Assembly (NCBI GenBank): GCA_002049455.2
Contig: KV918765.1
Coordinates: 1-64,000 of the forward strand
Origin: Porphyra umbilicalis
Taxonomy: Eukaryota; Rhodophyta; Bangiophyceae; Bangiales; Bangiaceae
Direction: 5' to 3'
Length of the DNA: 64,000 bases
Translations under genes and position numbers: made by a program
The notes under the pieces: generated by a model
Told to the model about the DNA's origin: nothing
Databases searched by the model: none
What the model saw: only the letters and a program-made list of their open reading frames with translations
Part shown: positions 13,892 through 63,900 of the stretch, piece by piece
How positions within the stretch are numbered: position 1 is the stretch's first letter
Layout: the number at the start of each line of letters is the position of its first letter

Positions 13892-14875
13892 ATGTCGTCT
13901 ACGGCCGCCGGCGCCATCCGTGGCGCTTGCCGCCTGGGGCGACGCCTCCCCATGGCCCCTCCCCGGCCGCCTGCCGCGGCCGCCGCGGCGGCCACCACCG
14001 GATGGCCGGGCGGCTGGCCGCCAGCCGCCCCATTGCGCTCCGCTGCCGGCCTTGCATCAGCGCCGGCGGCAGCAGCTGCTGCCCCCCCCCCACCTCATCC
14101 ACCGCCACGGCGGCGGCGCCCCCCCCCGCGCCCACCGCACCCAGCGGCCGCCGCTCTACACCCTCCCCTTTTACGGTTCCGCGGCGGACGTGGCGGGTGC
14201 GCCCGACGCCCTCGTGACCGCCGCCCTCCGCACGTACGGGGGCCTCCTCAAAGGCACGGCGGAGGAGCGGCGGGCGCGCCTCGCCGCCGCCGCCGCCGCG
14301 TCGTACCGGCCCGCCACGCTCACGGCGACGGGCGTGGTCGTGTCGACGGCGATGGACAAGTCCATCTCCGTCGCCATGCGCGTGCGCGTGTACCACCGGG
14401 TGCTCAAGGCGTGGTCCGCGGTCACCCGCAAGCGGATGGCGCACGATGAGGGGGGGTGGGCGCGGGAGGGGGACGTCGTCACGATCCGCTCCTGCCGGCC
14501 GCTCTCCAAGCGCAAATCCGCCGTCGTTGTTGTCAACTATGGGGGGGGGGGGGGGAGGCGGAGCGGGGGGCCGTCGGCCTGGAGGGGGCGGTCGTCGGCC
14601 GGGACGGGCGCGTGTCGCTGGCGGCGGCGGTGGAGGCGGAGGGGGGGAGTGGCCCTACCGCAGCGGATGGGAACGGCCGAGCCGCAGTGGATGGGGATGG
14701 CCCAACCGCAGTGGATGGGGATGGCCCAACCGCAGCGGATGGGGATGTCCCAACCGCAGCGGATGGGGATGGCCCAACCGCAGCGGATGGGGATGGCCCA
14801 ACCGCAGCGGATGGGGATGGCCCAACCGCAACTGATGGGGATGGGCAAGAAGCAGGCAAGCCTTCGACGGCGTGA
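13892..14875 (+). CDS. Organellar (probably mitochondrial) ribosomal protein uS17
   Basis: The conserved uS17 core is encoded at about 14320-14540: TGVVVSTAMDKSISVAMRV, VYHRVLKAWSAVTRKRMAHDE, EGDVVTIRSCRPLSKRKSAV. It has the family's MDK(T/S)I, AHDE and RPLSK signatures. Known: uS17 is a small-subunit protein binding 16S-type rRNA, and red-algal plastids normally encode their own rps17, so a nuclear copy of bacterial type is most likely mitochondrial. The ATG at 13892 opens an Arg/Ala-rich acid-free N-terminus (MSSTAAGAIRGACRLGRRLP) suited to a presequence, but it is in another frame. The switch needed lies near two C runs (14082-14091, 14119-14127). After the core a run of G near 14540 separates the basic frame from a more natural acidic tail ending at 14875. 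The tail holds a 24-bp minisatellite. Confidence 0.75.
14660..14846. repeat. 24-bp minisatellite at uS17 3' end
   Basis: About eight units of the type GCAGCGGATGGGGATG plus GCCCAACC, with a few substitutions. In the acidic frame each unit encodes GPTAADGD. All three plus frames stay open because 24 is a multiple of three. Confidence 0.9.
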
Positions 14876-18938: not shown

Positions 18939-20957
18939 ATGTCGTGTGTGTGCTCTTCCTTCAACCCACATACATCAGGACACAGTCATGCACCTGCGGA
19001 CTCTATCACTCCTGCTGCGGCTGCTGCTGGTGCGCAACCGCCGCCGAGCTCCCGCATGGCTGCTGATGTGCAGGATGAGGAGGCAGGCAACCAGGCACTT
19101 GCTGACGCTCGCAGGTGCGTCGCTGACCTGGAGCAAAAGGTTCGCGAGTTGGAGCAGAAACAGTCTACAGGACCGCTGGCTGTGGCGGGTATCGCAGCTG
19201 CGCCGGCGCAAGCCGACGTCAACTATTGCTTCGAGTACCCTACGGCGCCTGCGTCTGATTCGCTACTGTCGACGAATGGTCGCTGGTGTGGTCCCTGCGT
19301 GAACATCTTCCCGACGCACGACCCGACGAGCCCGCCTCGCGTCTTCAAGTACCTGCAGCCGTCGGAGCAGGACATTGCTGACGTCATCCAGAGAATGGGT
19401 GGCTCGTACCGCGCCCTGTGCAACATGTCTGTCGTCTCGGTGGACGGCGTCTCAGTCCTCGAGAAGTCGCCGGACCGCGCCATCCGAACCGTGCAGTCGG
19501 AGGTGATGAAGAGCAACAACGCTTATCAACTTCCGGGCGTACAGGTGAGAGAAAACAAGCCCCTTCGCATCCTGCAGCAGCCCGTCGTCTACTGCAAGCT
19601 GGACAACAAGCCCGACATAGCCTGGGTTGCCGAGGTGAGCGGAAAGCTGTTCGTGGTCGCAGTCCAAGAGGTGAAGCGGGCCTTTACATCTCCAGTGAAC
19701 GGCCTGCAACAGGTGGCCACCTACACCTGTGCGGCTGCTGCTGGCATGTACAACGCCGGCGTTGATCACGACAAGATCTTGGTGCCCATGTCGGTATGTA
19801 CCGGCTTGGCCGAAGTGCACGGCGCGGCCTTCATGGCGACACCATCGTTCCCTGTCGCAGTCTCGACGAGCGCCGTTCTCGACTTGCGGACTGACCAGGG
19901 AGCTGCCCGTGCGCACCTGCACCGATCAATGGCCAAGAAACAGATGGAGCGGTCACTGCAATTGCTTGACGAGGCGAGTGCGCCGGGGCGCCCCACGCGA
20001 GCCCGCTCAATTCCTGCTGAGCCTGGCGGCGGTGCGGATGAGACCCCGTGGTTTCGACCGTCTTTTGCCGTCTCGCAGGTGTGGCCCAAGCTTGGTGGCG
20101 TGTCCCACGGGCTCATGCATGGGCGAGATGTGACGCTGCTGCGCATGGGACATGTCTTCCAGAAGTTGTACGCCTCGCCTGCATCTCGCTTCGTGTGCTT
20201 CCCCATCTGCTTTGCCAACAACGTCCTGCCTCCGCCATTGACCAAGGGCGGCGTGTCGGCGCTTCTGTTCCCCAACTTGATGCGGGACGGATATCGCTGT
20301 GGCTTGCCGGAGGACTTGGAGACGGCAAGAATGTACATCTCGGCTGTTAAGGAGGCGATGATTGCGCTTCACGAGGCCGGCGTCATCCACGGGGACATGT
20401 ACATCTCGAACATTATGTGGCGCCGGTTCCCCACCTCGTCGTCGGTTGACGTGAAGCTGATCGACTGGGACACGGCCTTTCTCGCGCAAGATGGCCTCCC
20501 TGACGGCATGGAGCGGGCGTGGAAAACCACGTGCAAGTGGTGCCTGTACCAGACGCGGTCAACCCAGGTGGACGACGTGGTCAACCTGCGGCTGCTGGAC
20601 TCCTTCATGGTGAACACCCTCGAGCACTTTTGCGTTGAGGACACGTATCTATGGCGCGAGTGGATGAAGGCGGCCGGCGACAAGCCCGTGCGCAACCTGA
20701 ACAGCGCCTTCCGTCGCATGCAGTGCTTGTACGTACGGCACAACGGGTGGCCCGAGCCCGAGGTATGCCGGGTTGTGCTTGGCAGCAAGGACGAGCAGGT
20801 GGCGGTGCGTTCGAGCGAGACAGCAGCGGCGGCCACTGTGCCTGCAGCAGAAGATGAGTGGGCCATGGGGTCGGTCGGGGACGCTGCGCGGGCTCCGCCG
20901 GCCAAGAAATCACGACCTGAAGCTTCAGGCCTCCCTTCTACTCCGAGTCGCAACTAG
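18939..20957 (+). CDS. PD-(D/E)xK nuclease-like and kinase-like fusion protein
   Basis: 672 residues from ATG 18939; ATG 19056 (MAADVQDEEAG), just before a predicted coiled coil (residues about 52-76), is an alternative start. The middle region holds a restriction-endonuclease-like signature: KPDIAWV (Asp226), then LFVVAVQEVK (Glu244, Lys246), then a downstream Gln pair in NGLQQVATY. The C-terminal half has kinase-fold hallmarks: a hinge-like segment SALLFPNLMRDGY, helix AVKEAMIALHEAGV, catalytic loop IHGDMYISNIMW (Asp486, Asn491) and VKLIDWDTAF (Asp509) in the place of DFG. No clear glycine loop or VAIK lysine is visible; the segment MGHVFQKLY may supply the lysine. Known: nuclease-plus-kinase combinations occur in Crinkler/RHS-type effectors and some mobile-element proteins. 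The C-terminal tail (PPAKKSRPE) may be a nuclear signal. The ORF is unbroken. Function is inferred only. Confidence 0.7.
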   Translation: MSCVCSSFNPHTSGHSHAPADSITPAAAAAGAQPPPSSRMAADVQDEEAGNQALADARRCVADLEQKVRELEQKQSTGPLAVAGIAAAPAQADVNYCFEYPTAPASDSLLSTNGRWCGPCVNIFPTHDPTSPPRVFKYLQPSEQDIADVIQRMGGSYRALCNMSVVSVDGVSVLEKSPDRAIRTVQSEVMKSNNAYQLPGVQVRENKPLRILQQPVVYCKLDNKPDIAWVAEVSGKLFVVAVQEVKRAFTSPVNGLQQVATYTCAAAAGMYNAGVDHDKILVPMSVCTGLAEVHGAAFMATPSFPVAVSTSAVLDLRTDQGAARAHLHRSMAKKQMERSLQLLDEASAPGRPTRARSIPAEPGGGADETPWFRPSFAVSQVWPKLGGVSHGLMHGRDVTLLRMGHVFQKLYASPASRFVCFPICFANNVLPPPLTKGGVSALLFPNLMRDGYRCGLPEDLETARMYISAVKEAMIALHEAGVIHGDMYISNIMWRRFPTSSSVDVKLIDWDTAFLAQDGLPDGMERAWKTTCKWCLYQTRSTQVDDVVNLRLLDSFMVNTLEHFCVEDTYLWREWMKAAGDKPVRNLNSAFRRMQCLYVRHNGWPEPEVCRVVLGSKDEQVAVRSSETAAAATVPAAEDEWAMGSVGDAARAPPAKKSRPEASGLPSTPSRN

Positions 20958-24559: not shown

Positions 24560-25015
24560 GTCTCAAACTCCCGCCATGTGTCGAGCAATGCTCCACTGGC
24601 GGTTGAGAACCGCTCGAACTCCCACCATGTGTTGAGCTATGCTCCATTGGTGGTTGAGACTGGCTCGAACTCCCACCACGTGTCGAGCTATGCTCCACTG
24701 GTGGTTGAGACTGGCTCGAACTCCAATCACGTGTCGAGCTATGCTCCACTGGTCGTTGAGACTGGCTCGAACTCCCATCACGTGTCGAGCTATGCTCCAC
24801 TGGTGGTTGAGACTGGCTCGAGCTCCCGCCGTGTGTTAAGCTATGCTCCACTGGTGGTTGAGACTTGTTCGAACTCCCACCACATGTCGAGCTATGCTCC
24901 ACTGGTGGCTGAGACTGGCTCGAACTCCCACCATGCGTCGAGCTATGCTCCACTGGTGATTGAGACTGGCTCGAACCCCCACCATGCGTCGAGCTATCCT
25001 CCACTGGTGGTGAGC
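24560..25015. repeat. 51-bp minisatellite, about nine copies
   Basis: The unit contains GAGCTATGCTCCACTGGTGG followed by TTGAGACTGGCTCGAACTCC and CACCACGTGTC. Because 51 is a multiple of three, frames stay open on both strands: SSYAPLVVETGSNSHHV on plus and SSSQSQPPVEHSSTHGG on minus. Degenerate units extend left to about 24390. Confidence 0.9.
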
Positions 25016-39385: not shown

Positions 39386-42300
39386 ATGCCGCCGCCTCGT
39401 CCAGTGGCGGTCAGCCACAAGTGCGGGCTGTGCAACCGTCTCTTTCCGACGAGCGCTGCCGTAGGCCGGCACCGGCAGCAGTTTCATCCTGGGGTCCCTT
39501 TGCACGTCAACAGGAGCGCCGTGGCTCTGCCAAACACTCACCAAAGTTCAACACCATCCTCTTCGGCGCCTCTCGTTCAAGCCAACGCCGGCGTCGTGGA
39601 CGGGAGGCGGACGGGCGGCACTCCAGGATCTGTTCCCGTTTTCTCCTTGCGGCGCGGTCCGGCGAGCGCCTGCTCCTCGGTGCGCTCCGCGCGGGAGACC
39701 GAGACAGGGTCGCCACACTACGTGGCGGACCAGTCGGCCGCAAGGCCTGATGTGCTGCTGCTCGGCCGGCGAGAGTCCGCCATCCGTGCAAACGCCCCCC
39801 CGCCTCTGCGACCGCGGGTGGTCGTTGGCTCGTTGGCAACGCGCATCTATGCGTACTATCGGTCGAAGGGGGATGCCCAGCAAACGCGGCCTATATTCAA
39901 CAGTGCCACTGGCAGCCAACCTTCTAAGTTCAACAATGCAACGCTGCGGAAGGCCCGGCTCTTTGCGCTATCCACCGGCCGTGACGGGCTGTCGGTGGCT
40001 GGGAAAAAGATGCTGTGGGACGTGGTGGTGTCTGCCGAGCGGAGCACAAGGGCGAGCGACGCTGCCGGCGGCATGGGGCCCATGGAGTCTGCGTTTGAGT
40101 CCGCCGCCAAGTTTGCCGCGTCGTTCAAGAGCGAAGAAAACCGCTGCTTGACGGACCAGGGTTGGCGGGAGACCAAGATTGTGATAGACGGGCAGGCGTT
40201 CACGTTCTACTGGCGCGACCTGTGGGACGTGGCGGTGGAGGCCATTGTCGGCGCGGCGGAGCGGTCGATGTACGGCCATCGGCGCGTGCGTGGGGACGGC
40301 AGCATCATCCGCAGCGGCACGTTAGACAGTGACCTTTACTTGGAGGAGCAGGCGCGCGTCTTCAAGGAGCACAAGATCAACTCCAACGAGAAGCAGTTCG
40401 TGTTGGCAACCCAGCTGTTCTCCGACGCCGCGCTTGTCTCCTGGTCTGGAGGTACGTTGATTATGTTCATTTTCAGGGCCTACTCGAACATTTGCACCCT
40501 CGTTTTCGCCTATGCTCGTATGGACCGTCTCGTGGCGGCTATGCATACATGTGCTCGTTGATTGCTACCACGCCCATTAGCTCGTACTAACTGTCTCGAA
40601 GCCTGCCCTTCTTCCTACATCCTTTATTGTATTGTTCATTTGTTCGATGAACGTTGACCTCTTCAGCCCATTACATCTACCCAATCAGGGCTCGCTTCCC
40701 GAACGTCAAGAAGGGCGTCACCGAGTGGCAGACCGTCGCGTATTTGCCCTGTGTCAAACTTCGCCACGGAGCGGGCTGGCGCGAGAGGGAGCGCGCCCGT
40801 AACTTGCGTGGGCAGCTCCTGCAGCGGTGCATCGCGTTGCTGGTGGACCGCTTTGCGCTCGCGAGCCGAGCTGGTGAGATGATCTCCCTCGACGACGGCG
40901 TGTGGAGGGCGTTTCCGAGAATCACGCTGTATGCTGCAGACATGCCCGAGCAGCGCAATCTCCTCGGCCTACGCTTGGGCCGCAGCCTCAAGCCGTGTTC
41001 GCGATGCATGGTCAGCAAGGACCACTGTGGGAAGTGCGACGACGCCATGGCGCGCAATGTGCGGGAGACGGTGAGGCTGCAGCTGGAGGCCGCGAGCCTC
41101 TTCGACTCGAGCACCGGCTCAGCGCGGCGTGAGCAAATATCAGCGGACTACTCAGCCACCCCGTTTGTCCCGGCCCTGGGCGCCGTTGAAGGACTTTGCA
41201 CTGGTAACACGGCACTCTTTCGAGTCTTCGGTTTTGACCTCCTGCATGTACGTTTGGCGACGCATGTATCTTTTCTTCCTTCTTCTGCTTCTGTCCTATG
41301 TCTGAGTGGCTCGCGCAGAAAGCGCCGCTACTCACACCCCTCAAAAAGGACGACGCGTTCCCCCTCCCCCCCGACTGGAGCGTCCCGACGCTCCTCGGCG
41401 CAACCGCCGCCGTCTACCACACCAACGGCGCGTGTGTTGTGGGGGGCCGTGGCGTCGTGGCGGTCGGGAGGTCCGAGACGGCCGCGGATGCGGATTGTCG
41501 CCGCTTGGCCGCCGCCGCTGCGGTCCGGCAGCTGCCAATCCGTCAGCGCCGGCGGGGTGGCGGCGGCGACGCCGACCCTTCCCATCCCCGTCGGCCTCGT
41601 GTGCGACGGCATCTTGACCCACGCGCCCGTGTGGCCCGCCGACCGGCGACGCCTCCACGCAATCTGTTGTGTTGGAAAACGAGCGGGGGGTAGGGGCGGC
41701 CGCTACTGCCGCCACCGGGAACCGCCGTCAAAAGGCCCTCGCCCCTCCACCCCCAGTCCCCTGCTGGCGACCCGCCGCAAGCAGGGGACTGAACGCCACC
41801 CGACGTGGCCGTTACTAACAATTCTGCTTGTGTTTCGTTTTCTCTCTTTTTCTGGCCTTCTTGCATTCTGTTTATGTAGGTACCTGGTGCCAACAGGAAT
41901 CAAACAGCCCGTCCTCAGGGGTAGTGACTGGCGACATGGGGTGGTCTACTGGCCCGGAGCGGTCGCCGGCCTGATCGGCCGCCGGCCAGCCGACTCGGAC
42001 GCCCCCTTTGAGAGAAATCTTCGCAAGTCCCCGTTCGGCAGCCGCACGTTCCACGAGCAGGCGGAGCTCGCCAAGACCAAGAAGAAGGGCAAACGCAAGA
42101 AGATGTCCGGGGGGGGGGGGGTGCCAAGGCCGGACATTCGGAGTCGCCCTCGTCGGATGGGGAGAGTAGCCTGCGCGGGGACGCGGACAGCGACGGGTCA
42201 GATTGTGCACCCTACTCGGAATTCTTCTGGGACTCCGATGAGGAGAAGCTCGAGCCGACGACCACGACGGGTGTCGACTCCCCAGCCTTCGCGCTCCTTT

Positions 42301-43424
42301 TTCCCGGCTTGTCAATCGCCGATGCGGTCTTGGACGTAGTATGTCGGGCGGCCGCCCTGTCTGGCCGACTGTCAGGCGACAACCGGGCGGTACAGGCCGA
42401 CACGCCGACGGAGGAGGCAGAGAGCATCGCCGCCGACGCCGACGCTTTCATCACCCGCTACGTTGCTGTTCTCTTTGGTCCGGTCAACACGCCTAAGGCG
42501 CATGTCGTCGCCAACCACCTCTTGGAGGAGCTGTTGGACCGCGGCAACCTCGTTGAGGCCGACACCAGCATCAACGAGGGCTTGCACTCGAGATGCAAGG
42601 CCATGTACGAGCGGACGAACAAGTATGTCAACACATTCACTGTGCAGATGATGCGACACGAGCAGACGCTCTCGGCCATTCTCGCCGACGCTCCTGAGCC
42701 GTTGGAGGTGCCGGTGGGCGGGACACGCCGGCGAAAGCGCAAGCGGGCCGTCGGGGCGTCCCCAGCAGAGGACGAGGAACGATTGGCAGCGGGTGCGGAC
42801 ACGCCGACTGTTCGTGTGCGGGGGCGGCGCGTTCCGGTAACGACGCTGGCCCGCACCGCCGGTGGCCGGTTGTCGAGATTGGCGGCGGCGTTGCACGTGA
42901 CCGAGGACTCGTCGGTGGCTGTTCAAAACTCGTTGCTGTTTCCCGCCGTCTACGAGTGGGGCGCTCCCTCTGAGTACCTGCGGGTGCGAGCTGACCCATC
43001 CAACTTTGGAAAGCCGTACTACGACTTCGTGCGCTGTCGGGACGCGGTGGCGCCGGGTGGCTTCTTTTACGGCCTCGCTATTCTGGCGTACGACGGCGTC
43101 GACAATACGCCCCGCAGCGGGATTATAGTGCAGCGGCTGCTGGTGGAGGAGAAGGACCCAGCATGTGTGCGGACACGGTATGGCGACACGAGGCTGCGAT
43201 GGGAGCTCGACGCCTCCACTGGGTTTCCCGTGCTTGTGGACGTGGCGATTGAGAATGTTCTGCGACTGGAGCAGATAGAGCCCGACTTTGTGCCTCTTTG
43301 CGCGCGCCGCGGCCTCTTTGCGACGCCTGCCAACAGTCCAGATACTCGTAGGGAGCGTGAGCTGGAGCGCTTCTTTGTCAACTCGCACTACCCGTGGACC
43401 TCTGCGAAGCTGAAGGAACATTGA
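39386..43424 (+). CDS. Plavaka-like (CACTA superfamily) transposase, nearly intact
   Basis: Three exons: 39386-40451, 40667 to about 41250, and about 41880-43424; roughly 1,060 residues. Exon 1 starts at an ATG with a C2H2 finger (KCGLCNRLFPTSAAVGRHRQQFH), then a disordered linker, then TFYWRDLWDVAVEAIVG and QFVLATQLFSDAALVSWSGG. Exon 2 has AHYIYPIRARFPNVKKG, EWQTVAYLPCVKLRHG, LRGQLLQRCIALLVDRF, ISLDDGVWRAFPRITLYAAD and LKPCSRCMVSKDHCGKC. Exon 3 has LVPTGIKQPVLRGSDWR, a Lys/acidic linker, TPKAHVVANHLLEELLDRG, SINEGLHSRCKAMYERTN, NTFTVQMMRHEQTL and a beta-rich C-terminal domain. Known: these blocks match Plavaka transposases. The only visible break is a run of 13 G at 42109-42121, where the frame must change by one. 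It may be autonomous if that is a sequencing slip. Confidence 0.8.
40452..40666 (+). other. Intron 1 of the Plavaka-like transposase
   Basis: GTACGT donor after ...TCTGGAG; acceptor CTCTTCAG before CCCATTACATC. Phase 1, 215 bp. Same residue and phase as the intron at 1584-1777. Confidence 0.85.
41250..41880 (+). other. Intron 2 of the Plavaka-like transposase (ends approximate)
   Basis: Begins at a GTACGT or the nearby GTTTGG after GFDLLHV. Ends at TTTATGTAG or the later GCCAACAG before GIKQPVLRG. GC-rich and unusually open, encoding DDAFPLPPDWSVPTLLG and ATPTLPIPVGLVCDGIL in two frames, which may be a captured gene fragment. Confidence 0.55.
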
Positions 43425-60916: not shown

Positions 60917-63900
60917 CTACACCGTCGCGGCCGTGTTGGCCGTCTCGCCCGGCTGGACCATGCACAAGCGGCGGCGGAACTCGGCCATTGCCGGGTTTGC
61001 CAGCGCCTTTATGAGGCCATCTGCGACCATCTTCGCATCACGTCGGTGGACGAACTCGGCGGACCCCATGGCCGCCCGCTCCCGCACGACGTGGTGGGCG
61101 GTATCAATGTGCTTCGCGCCCGGTCCCTTTGGGGTTGGCGATCAAAGACAGGCAACCCAGTTTGTGCTCGGCCATGGGGACCGGCCGTTCCGGCTCATCC
61201 AGGTCCCCCATGAGCTTCTTCAGCCACAGGGCCTCACGCGTCGCAGACGCGGCGGCAATGTACTCGGTCTCGGCGGTGGAGCATGAAGCCGTCGGCTGTC
61301 GCTTATTGGACCAGGAAATGGCCCCGCCGCCGCACATGAATACCCACCCCGTGGTTGAGCGGCGCGTGTCGGGGCAGCCATTGCAGGTGGCGTCCACCGC
61401 CTCTTCCAGCTCCCGCGAGCCGCAGTATTGTAGGCCGAGGTCGACCGTGCCGGACAGGTTACGGACGACGCCTTTGGCGGCTCGCCAGTGCGCCTCCTCC
61501 GGTTGGCTCATAAAACTTGCGTGGGTTATGGCAGCGAAGTCGATGTGCGCACGTACCGATGCGGCCAGGTACAACAGGCTACCCACCATCTCCTGCTCCC
61601 ACCTGCTTGTGTCCATGGGCAACTCCCCGGTCCGGCGTCGCGCTGTCCTCGCCGGCATAGGCTGCTGAGCGGGGTGCGTGTCCATCACGCCAAAGTTGTA
61701 AAGGAGAGCCTTGATCAGGCCGGGACAGCTGATCGTCAGCGTGCGTTTGGGGCAATTTCGAACGATGCCCATTCCCAGGAAGTCCTTGGCCGGTCCCAAG
61801 TCCCGCCCCTTGTAGCGCTGGAGAAGCGCCGCCTTTGCTGCATCTACGGCCACGCGCGTCTTGCCCAGGGTAGCGAGGTCATCGACGTGCGCAAGGATGA
61901 GGCTGCGGCCATGGATGGGGTGGTCCCACGTGTAATGGTTCGGGTCCGTTCCCAACCATTTGGCACCGGCGCGTGTCAGTGTGGCACAAAGTTGCTCGCC
62001 CCACAGCCGCCCGGCTTGCTTAGTCCCATACAATGCGGAGCGTAGTTTGGACACCGTATTAGGGCCACAATCGTAATAGCCCGCCGGTAGGTTCACGCAC
62101 ACGTCCACGTCCATGGAGGCGTTCAACTACGCCGTCTTAATGTCAATTGTTTCGAGCTAGAGGTTTTGTGGTGCCGCATAGGCCACCACCGGTCGTACGG
62201 TCACCCTCGCGGGGCATGGCGCCCACACCTAGTGCGAGTCCACGCCAGCCCTCTGTGAGTACCCACAGCCGACGTCGCGAGCCTTTTATCGGGTGATTTT
62301 GGCATTCGCATCGCTGTTGTAGTCGGAGGCCCGCTTGCCGCGCATCCGCTGCGCGCCACGAGGGGGGTCAACGACCGTCCAGGTGTTGTTCTCGAGGATC
62401 GACATGTACTCGGCGTCCATCGCTTCATTTCACGGGTACGCATCGCCGCGGGAAAGTGCCTCAGTCCGTGTCTGCGGCGGCTCAGAGCACCAGTCTGCCA
62501 GCCGCAGGGCGGCCTCCAGGAAGATGGGCGCGAGCTCCAAAGGCGGATCCGGCGCCACGCCAGTCGGCGCGCCGCGGGTGGAAGCCTAGAACGCGGAGGG
62601 TCTGCCCGACCCCGTGCGCGTCCACAAATTGTAGTCATGCGTTGCTGTCGGCGCCGCGAGCGGCACGGTCATGAAGTTGGGCGGTGGCAATAGAGCCGCG
62701 GCGGGGAGCAGGGCGACGGCGTCCGTCAGGTTGTCGACGGTAGGAACGCCGGGCGTCGACCCTGCCGGTGCCGGAACCCCATCTCCCTCATCGTCGGACG
62801 AGCAGCCGTCTTCAAACCAGTCCCCATACAGGTGAGGGCAGACGAGTAGGGCGCCCGCGATGACGAGGGACGGCGGCACTATCTCGTCAAACTCAACGTC
62901 GCGACGCGTCAGGATGGCGCCGGTCGCGGCGGAACGGATGCGCAAGGCGTGCTGGCCAGAGCTGTAGCCCACCCTGTGACCAAAGATTACACGAGACTCG
63001 AGCTTGCCGGCTGACCTAGGCGGGCGCTTGGCGCAGGCTTTGCAGCCCCACACGTGGACCATGGACAAGTCAGGCCGTTTGGCGTAGAATAGTTCATGCG
63101 GCGTTGCCGACCCGTCGGCGGTCGGGTATTAGTTCATAATGAATGACACGGCGACTAACATTTCGCCCCAATGAGCCAGGGGCAAGCGCGAGCCCAGAAG
63201 CATGGCGCAGGTGCGCTCCATCAGGAAGCGGTTGTGCCTCTCGGCCTTGCCGGTCAACTTCGGGGAGTACGGCGAGGAGAACTCCACTTTGATCCCCTTC
63301 GATGCCATAAACTGCCGCATCACGTCGTTGCTGGGCATCGTTTTTTCCCCGTCAGTGCGGATAATCTTTACCTTCTTGTTCGCATGGTTTTCCAGGTACA
63401 GGATCCAGTCACGGAGCGCCACCCCGGCCTCTGCCTTCGTCTTGAGCGGAAAAGCAAATGACAAGTCGGTGCAGGCGTCTGTCATCGACAATGCGTAAGA
63501 CGCGCCAACACTTGACACGGGGGTCAGCGGGCCAATCAAATATACGCAGACCCGTTCGAACATGACGATGGCACGCTCGCCAGCGCCGTGCGGGTGTACC
63601 AGCATGCGTGCTTCGACGCACGGCTCACACACGGCAACGGCGGTGAGCTCAATGTCCTTGGTAGAGATGGTCGTGTCGGTGACGATCTTGGCGGCATTGC
63701 CAACATTGTTGTAGCCAAGGTGACTGAAAAACAGACGCTACAGGTCGCCACGCGCATTGTCCTTTCAACAGGCGGCGAGGGCGGCGTGAGGCAACTCCCC
63801 GGGTGTCGCGGTATGCGCGAGCGTCATCTCGTACTGCTCGTTCATGTTGAAGTGGCCGTCAGCCACGACAACACTTTCCTTCTTGATTGTCGCGGTGCTG

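Follow-up and report, generated by a model that had tools for sequence, protein, structure and literature searches.

Genes that join a nuclease and a kinase in a single protein are known from fungi as the Spok genes, and a gene predicted to share this layout is reported here from the alga Porphyra umbilicalis (Rhodophyta). It lies at 19056..20957 on the plus strand of a 64,000-nucleotide stretch of contig KV918765.1, assembly GCA_002049455.2; the whole stretch is called the window below. SPOK3 of Podospora is described as a coiled coil followed by a domain of unknown function, then a PD-(D/E)XK nuclease with HsdR as its best HHpred hit, and finally a kinase that is likened to Kdo (PMC6660238). 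According to the same report, killing by SPOK3 requires K240, resistance requires the kinase domain with D667, and a resistance-only Spok2 allele occurs in strain A. In Podospora, one nuclease-kinase protein has been shown to suffice for drive. A SPOK1 variant is reported to kill E. coli via DNA damage and to be toxic to yeast (PMC9972908), and some Fusarium homologues have both toxin and antidote activity in yeast (PMC12693581). The latter source calls the nuclease-kinase architecture widespread, citing Zhang et al. 2016, and a 2026 review of meiotic drive places Spok under fungi (PMC12941216). Combinations of restriction endonuclease (REase) and kinase are also described for about one sixth of the C-termini of Crinkler-RHS (CR) proteins, and occur in free-living eukaryotes (PMC5289972).

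By comparative analysis, the window protein is of a known architectural kind, nuclease-kinase, and is Spok-like on paper. It is proposed to be a REase-kinase toxin/antidote conflict protein that works like Spok, with a probability of roughly 0.45. No report of such a family in algae was found in the titles and abstract beginnings of the open-licence literature; Zhang et al. 2016 may include algal members.

Predicted nuclease and kinase regions

Residues are numbered from the ATG at 19056, and conservation is given over 11 aligned family copies. The features of the gene and of its two predicted catalytic regions are as follows.

19056..20957, plus strand: nuclease-kinase gene, 633 amino acids plus stop (open reading frame and genome search)
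19503..19955, plus strand: predicted PD-(D/E)xK (HsdR-like) nuclease region, residues 150-300 (conservation and profile comparison)
19611..19616, plus strand: P186-D187, nuclease motif, D kept in 10/11 copies
19668..19676, plus strand: E205-V-K207, ExK, E in 9/11 and K in 10/11 copies
19710..19724, plus strand: QxxxY, Q219-Y223, at K+12 and K+16, Q in 10/11 copies, register as in 7/10 HsdR
20043..20765, plus strand: kinase-like region, residues 330-570 (Pfam, NCBIfam and alignment)
20388..20411, plus strand: kinase catalytic loop H445-G-D447-M-Y-I-S-N452, with H, G, D, Y, S and N in 11/11 copies
20463..20480, plus strand: metal-binding motif D470-W-D-T-A-F475, which replaces DFG, with D, W, D, T and F in 11/11 copies

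Within residues 150-300, the acidic, basic and amide columns kept in at least nine of the 11 copies are D187, E205, K207, Q219, H287 and H289, the first four of which together form a D...ExK...Q signature. Y223 is limited to the subfamily of the window copy (4/11). A profile of the family nuclease was compared by hhalign with ten HsdR proteins, one from E. coli K-12 and nine plasmid-borne (from the 30 listed of 227 matching records). HsdR was picked as the yardstick, not blind, because it is the best HHpred hit of SPOK3. The comparison gave a score of 30.5 (P 0.00016, Prob 50.9%), and ExK and QxxxY of the window protein were each aligned with their counterparts in HsdR. None of 600 column shuffles reached this score (maximum 20.6, mean 11.2, standard deviation 2.1), seven other HsdR segments scored 13.2 or less, and the reversed profile scored 10.8. 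The full-length family profile found the same place in HsdR (30.9, P 0.0013, Prob 18.2%), and an earlier version with four HsdR proteins and 11 copies scored 25.7, where the highest of 400 shuffles reached 20.3. At profile level, the predicted identity of the nuclease domain is upheld.

The placing of Q and Y 12 and 16 residues after K is shared with seven of the ten HsdR proteins; among the exceptions, EcoKI has E and Y at these sites, and in two others the register is off by one or two residues. Both groups have a D upstream, and the D-to-E spacing is 18 in the window protein and 14 in EcoKI HsdR. Unlike HsdR, the window protein has no helicase family among its Pfam matches, and its nuclease is fused to a kinase.

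The Pfam Kdo model matches the window protein at residues 423-473 with 23.0 bits, against a cut-off of 21.3, and the Kdo, protein-kinase and APH models of Pfam reach E values of 1 or better in all 11 members. Matches to Bud32, Kdo kinase and LanKC were obtained with NCBIfam, the window protein lying far under the cut-offs of those models. The likeness to the Kdo/WaaP, Bud32 and LanKC kinases covers the catalytic loop and the Asp motif region (residues 423-483). Unlike these kinases, the window protein has no clear glycine loop, none being seen in the kinase region, in agreement with the first-pass annotation of this DNA; its beta-3 lysine is not assignable, because two alignments put it at different sites. 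The catalytic-loop and metal-binding residues of a kinase are present, and the region is a predicted kinase only. That a nuclease and a kinase are joined in one protein, as had been proposed from the motifs, is supported by the HsdR profile comparison together with the Pfam Kdo match.

Gene family and selection

The window is GC-rich and holds other long open reading frames, of which listed ones reach 685 and 788 amino acids, so that length alone is weak evidence for a gene. The stretch 19056-20957 is regarded as a gene because 12 further genomic loci were found and because the ratios of nonsynonymous to synonymous substitutions (dN/dS) are well below 1. Re-reading of the sequence returned the reading frame and the motifs as first annotated on the plus strand. 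An upstream in-frame ATG at 18939 would give a protein of 672 amino acids, the 39 extra residues being of low complexity. The residues first named as Asp226, Glu244, Lys246 and Asp486 are real, but their numbering fits the ATG at 18939 and not the start at 19056 given with them; counted from 19056, they are D187, E205, K207 and D447.

A search of the window protein against its own genome (83.8 Mb, 665 contigs) found 13 loci on 12 contigs. The gene, for which a check of copy number had been suggested, is thus one of a multicopy family. Queries from three other subfamilies recovered 12, 12 and 13 of the same loci and no further locus; the sole addition was a 75-residue fragment, 97% identical, that adjoins one copy. 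Subfamily A consists of the window copy, L002, L003, L004 and the broken L005, subfamily B of L006, L007, L009 and L012, subfamily C of L010 and L011, and subfamily D of L008 (one stop) and the broken L013. Alignments include 11 of the 13 loci; L005, which has four stops and whose match stops short of the kinase, and L013, which has one stop and frame breaks, were omitted, and L008 was aligned only as far as its stop. DNA similarity between the window copy and L002 extends over about residues 58-575, with flanks that are not alike. Among the copies, DNA similarity mostly stops at the ends of the coding region (most flanks were compared over about 1.5 kb), and the pairs L006/L007 and L008/L013 have some upstream sequence in common. 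Thirteen pattern matches in viral contigs and 24 in a collection of genome contigs yielded no confirmed relative, and a phage collection gave no family match.

For ten pairs of copies, dN/dS was obtained with a Nei-Gojobori count written for this analysis. The ratio was 0.13-0.33 for residues 171-300 in nine of ten pairs (the tenth is undefined, with dS saturated), 0.20-0.48 for residues 340-570 and 0.24-0.60 for residues 66-170, the last two in all ten pairs. These values are rough, because dS is 0.46-2.29 in the nuclease and kinase parts where defined. The nuclease and kinase domains are both under purifying selection.

The D/E/K triad, whose loss in homologues would have spoken against a nuclease, is complete in seven of the 11 copies and changed at one position in four, and the kinase motifs are unbroken in all 11. 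The changes are K to E in L003, D to G in L010, E to Q in L009, which may still work, and E to V in L012, where Q219 is also changed to E. At least three of the triad changes are independent, since they fall in three subfamilies, each of which has an intact relative in the tree. An altered triad with the kinase retained, beside the four stops in L005, whose match lacks the kinase, is what an antidote would predict, though in small numbers; copies with a changed triad recall the resistance-only Spok2 allele of strain A.

Two repeats were noted near family members. On contig C91, positions 4893-6001 of L061 and 2801-3909 of L010 form a 1.1-kb repeat, 99.7% identical and about 7.75 kb apart, that spans the final 75 codons of a family member together with DNA downstream of it; it is either a recent partial duplication or an assembly artefact. 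A similar short stretch (88-91%) lies upstream of L004 (4117-4174), L007 (4437-4494) and L010 (603-637), copies that are otherwise diverged; it could represent a control element that they share or simply a common repeat.

Toxin/antidote reading and its alternatives

Outside the two catalytic regions, three further features of the protein enter the comparison with Spok.

19098..19160, plus strand: possible coiled coil of three heptads, residues 15-35, weak, 35 of 300 shuffles having a run of this length
19251..19502, plus strand: conserved domain of unknown function, residues 66-149 (alignment of 11 copies)
20904..20915, plus strand: basic C-terminal KKSR, possible nuclear localization signal (pattern only)

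The family resembles Spok in the order of its parts, which are a possible N-terminal coil (weak here), a domain of unknown function, an HsdR-like PD-(D/E)xK region and a Kdo-like kinase C-terminal to the nuclease. Further likenesses are the catalytic Asp in the kinase, the long unbroken reading frame, the several diverged copies per genome, and the copies with an altered nuclease triad and intact kinase motifs. In the domain of unknown function, S67, G79, D89-P-T91, L100, P102 and E136 are invariant in all 11 copies. For the N-terminal coiled coil of the first-pass annotation there are three possible heptads, a weak signal in the window copy. The length of the N-terminus differs among the copies, and the longest heptad run per copy ranges from 0 to 5; of 300 shuffles, the runs are matched by 2 in L004, 4 in L007, 5 in L010 and 12 in L003, and by 35 to 300 in the other seven copies. 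Basic tails like KKSR are also found in L002 and L004 and not in L003. Unlike in Spok, QxxxY follows the catalytic Lys at a distance of 12, compared with 54 in SPOK3 (PMC6660238), and the host is an alga, where Spok is hosted by the fungi Podospora and Fusarium.

On the toxin/antidote reading, one protein would carry both the poison and the antidote. The HsdR-like PD-(D/E)xK domain would damage nuclear DNA, and, in cells that have inherited the gene, the Kdo-like kinase would neutralize the nuclease activity. Cells or gametes that receive the protein and lose the locus would die, and the locus would in this way favour its own transmission. The spread of the 13 loci over 12 contigs counts in favour of this reading, as does a hit to the meiosis gene family TBPIP (Hop2) in the genome. 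We infer in this scheme a nuclease activity, toxicity, protection by the kinase, action in the nucleus and a transmission advantage. The class of genome-conflict protein, to which the gene had been provisionally assigned, remains the best one.

A wider and rather unlikely proposal is that the alga has a Spok-type family of single-gene poison/antidote elements, either killer meiotic drivers or chromosome-retention genes, in which copies with a decayed nuclease persist as resistance genes. If the proposal is true, drive by REase-kinase genes would have a much greater age or mobility than is apparent from fungi. The family, which has no cysteine cluster and shows single-residue changes in the triad, offers naturally occurring variants with which to separate the parts required for killing from those required for protection, and could show whether nuclease-kinase genes drive outside fungi.

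Several results weigh against a Spok-like toxin and antidote. The cluster C-x3-C-x13-C-x5-H-x7-H, which precedes the kinase in Spok and is needed there for resistance, is absent from all 11 copies, also when looser spacing is allowed. Membership of Spok is not claimed, because this cluster is absent and because the comparison with Spok was made by description only. The nuclease match is lower for parts of the set of copies: subfamily A alone scored 16.8 against four HsdR proteins, within the range of shuffles (maximum 19.6), and against ten HsdR proteins subfamily A alone scored 22.7 and the remaining copies alone 19.5, this last half-query score falling within the whole-set shuffle range. The HsdR match covers 31 columns and stops short of D187, which, being outside the matched columns, is placed by motif and conservation. 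An hhalign comparison with ten Mrr proteins (the E. coli K-12 copy and nine from the 30 listed of 68, with no shuffle control) scored 13.8, away from ExK, and gave no match to the Mrr catalytic domain. A Pfam search of the nuclease region gave nothing credible, a profile search against the PDB gave allophycocyanin only (E about 0.5), and AlphaFold without an alignment gave confidence (pLDDT, predicted local distance difference test) values of 34.8 for residues 55-305 and 38.0 for residues 146-278. The lesion pattern of four against none is small and was noticed after the fact. L013 is a possible counter-example: D, E and K are all retained in its nuclease stretch, which runs into a stop ahead of the kinase, although the N-terminal part and the kinase end are in other frames, so that this locus is broken on either side of the nuclease stretch. 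In nine pairs, lesion-bearing copies included, the nuclease is more constrained than the kinase.

The main rival to the toxin/antidote reading is host defence, an unlikely alternative in which the nuclease would cut the DNA of viruses or transposons, the kinase would sense the invader or switch the nuclease, and the family would be kept for protecting its carrier. The strong constraint on the nuclease seen in dN/dS fits such a role, as does the match to HsdR, which is a domain of restriction enzymes. The kinase is weakly like bacterial defence kinases (MADS6, E 4e-4, and PglW, E 0.016, each in one of 11 copies), and two mobile-element genes, one for a Plavaka transposase and one for a partial copia-type reverse transcriptase, lie in the window. 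However, Pfam searches of the family proteins found no sensor domain, the loss of single triad residues with retention of the kinase in three subfamilies is more simply explained by an antidote, and Spok, the nearest architecture that has been tested experimentally, is a toxin/antidote gene.

Little credence is given to an origin from transposons, with the nuclease-kinase gene as cargo or machinery of a mobile element. The spread of thirteen loci over 12 contigs and the transposon-like genes elsewhere in the window would agree with it. Inverted repeats of at least 25 nt were not found between 15000 and 25000 of the window, however, and no transposase domain was found in ten nearby window open reading frames (of 77 listed) or among ten taken from the neighbourhood of two other copies (five from the 28 listed at one, five from the 22 at the other). 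The flanks mostly differ between copies over the roughly 1.5 kb seen for most of them, although larger elements are compatible with this result. The suggestion of a self-mobilizing nuclease finds no support in these results, in which neither inverted repeats nor a transposase domain were seen in the stretches searched and DNA similarity mostly ends with the coding region.

A CR effector, exported to act in another organism, is similarly improbable. CR proteins such as CRN8 of Phytophthora are like the window protein in that they combine an REase and a kinase in one protein and are multicopy. They differ from it in their header and kinase type: LxLFLAK is absent from all 11 copies, the family proteins have no Crinkler Pfam match (LxLFLAK/Ubl header), and the kinase carries HGD and DWD and is not of the RD type as in CRN8. 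A genome search found no header either, though no control genome gave a signal. The idea of a Crinkler/RHS-type effector in the first-pass annotation is not favoured, as the LxLFLAK/Ubl header is lacking by both Pfam and the LxLFLAK pattern. Finally, the protein might serve in signalling, with the kinase as the working part and the nuclease fold as a mere scaffold. This would explain kinase motifs that are invariant in 11/11 copies beside a triad altered in 4/11, but is likewise improbable given that D, E and K are all kept in seven copies and that, in the nine pairs with a defined value, dN/dS is lower for the nuclease than for either of the other two regions.

Surroundings of the gene

Other features of the window are listed below.

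14331-14531 (approximate), plus strand: ribosomal protein S17 domain, Pfam PF00366, 66.4 bits
14644-14844: tandem repeat of 24 nt, 8.3 copies, through which the S17 open reading frame continues in frame
24562-25011: tandem repeat of 51 bp, 8.8 copies
40654-42339, plus strand: open reading frame with a Plavaka transposase domain, Pfam PF18759, 45.7 bits, about 20 kb from the nuclease-kinase gene
61104-62126, minus strand: fragment of a copia-type reverse transcriptase, Pfam RVT_2, 50.8 bits, about 40 kb from the nuclease-kinase gene

The Plavaka transposase open reading frame had no relative among solved structures. A scan for sigma-70 promoters, a model unsuited to a eukaryote, found none. The S17 domain lies about 4.5 kb upstream of the nuclease-kinase gene on the same strand and is of bacterial (organelle) type by eye. 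For two light-harvesting sequences of the genome, the best solved relatives include chains of entries 9vfj and 7y5e, the latter from a red alga, and ACPI/ACPII/CAC proteins, of which ACPI and CAC are cryptophyte proteins. Neither a dynein heavy chain nor a cryptophyte phycoerythrin alpha chain turned up in the genome, in searches where no control genome gave a signal; a red alga is thus likely from the sequence. The window is taken to be nuclear DNA of a photosynthetic eukaryote, because it carries this organelle-type S17 gene and because light-harvesting genes are present in the genome.
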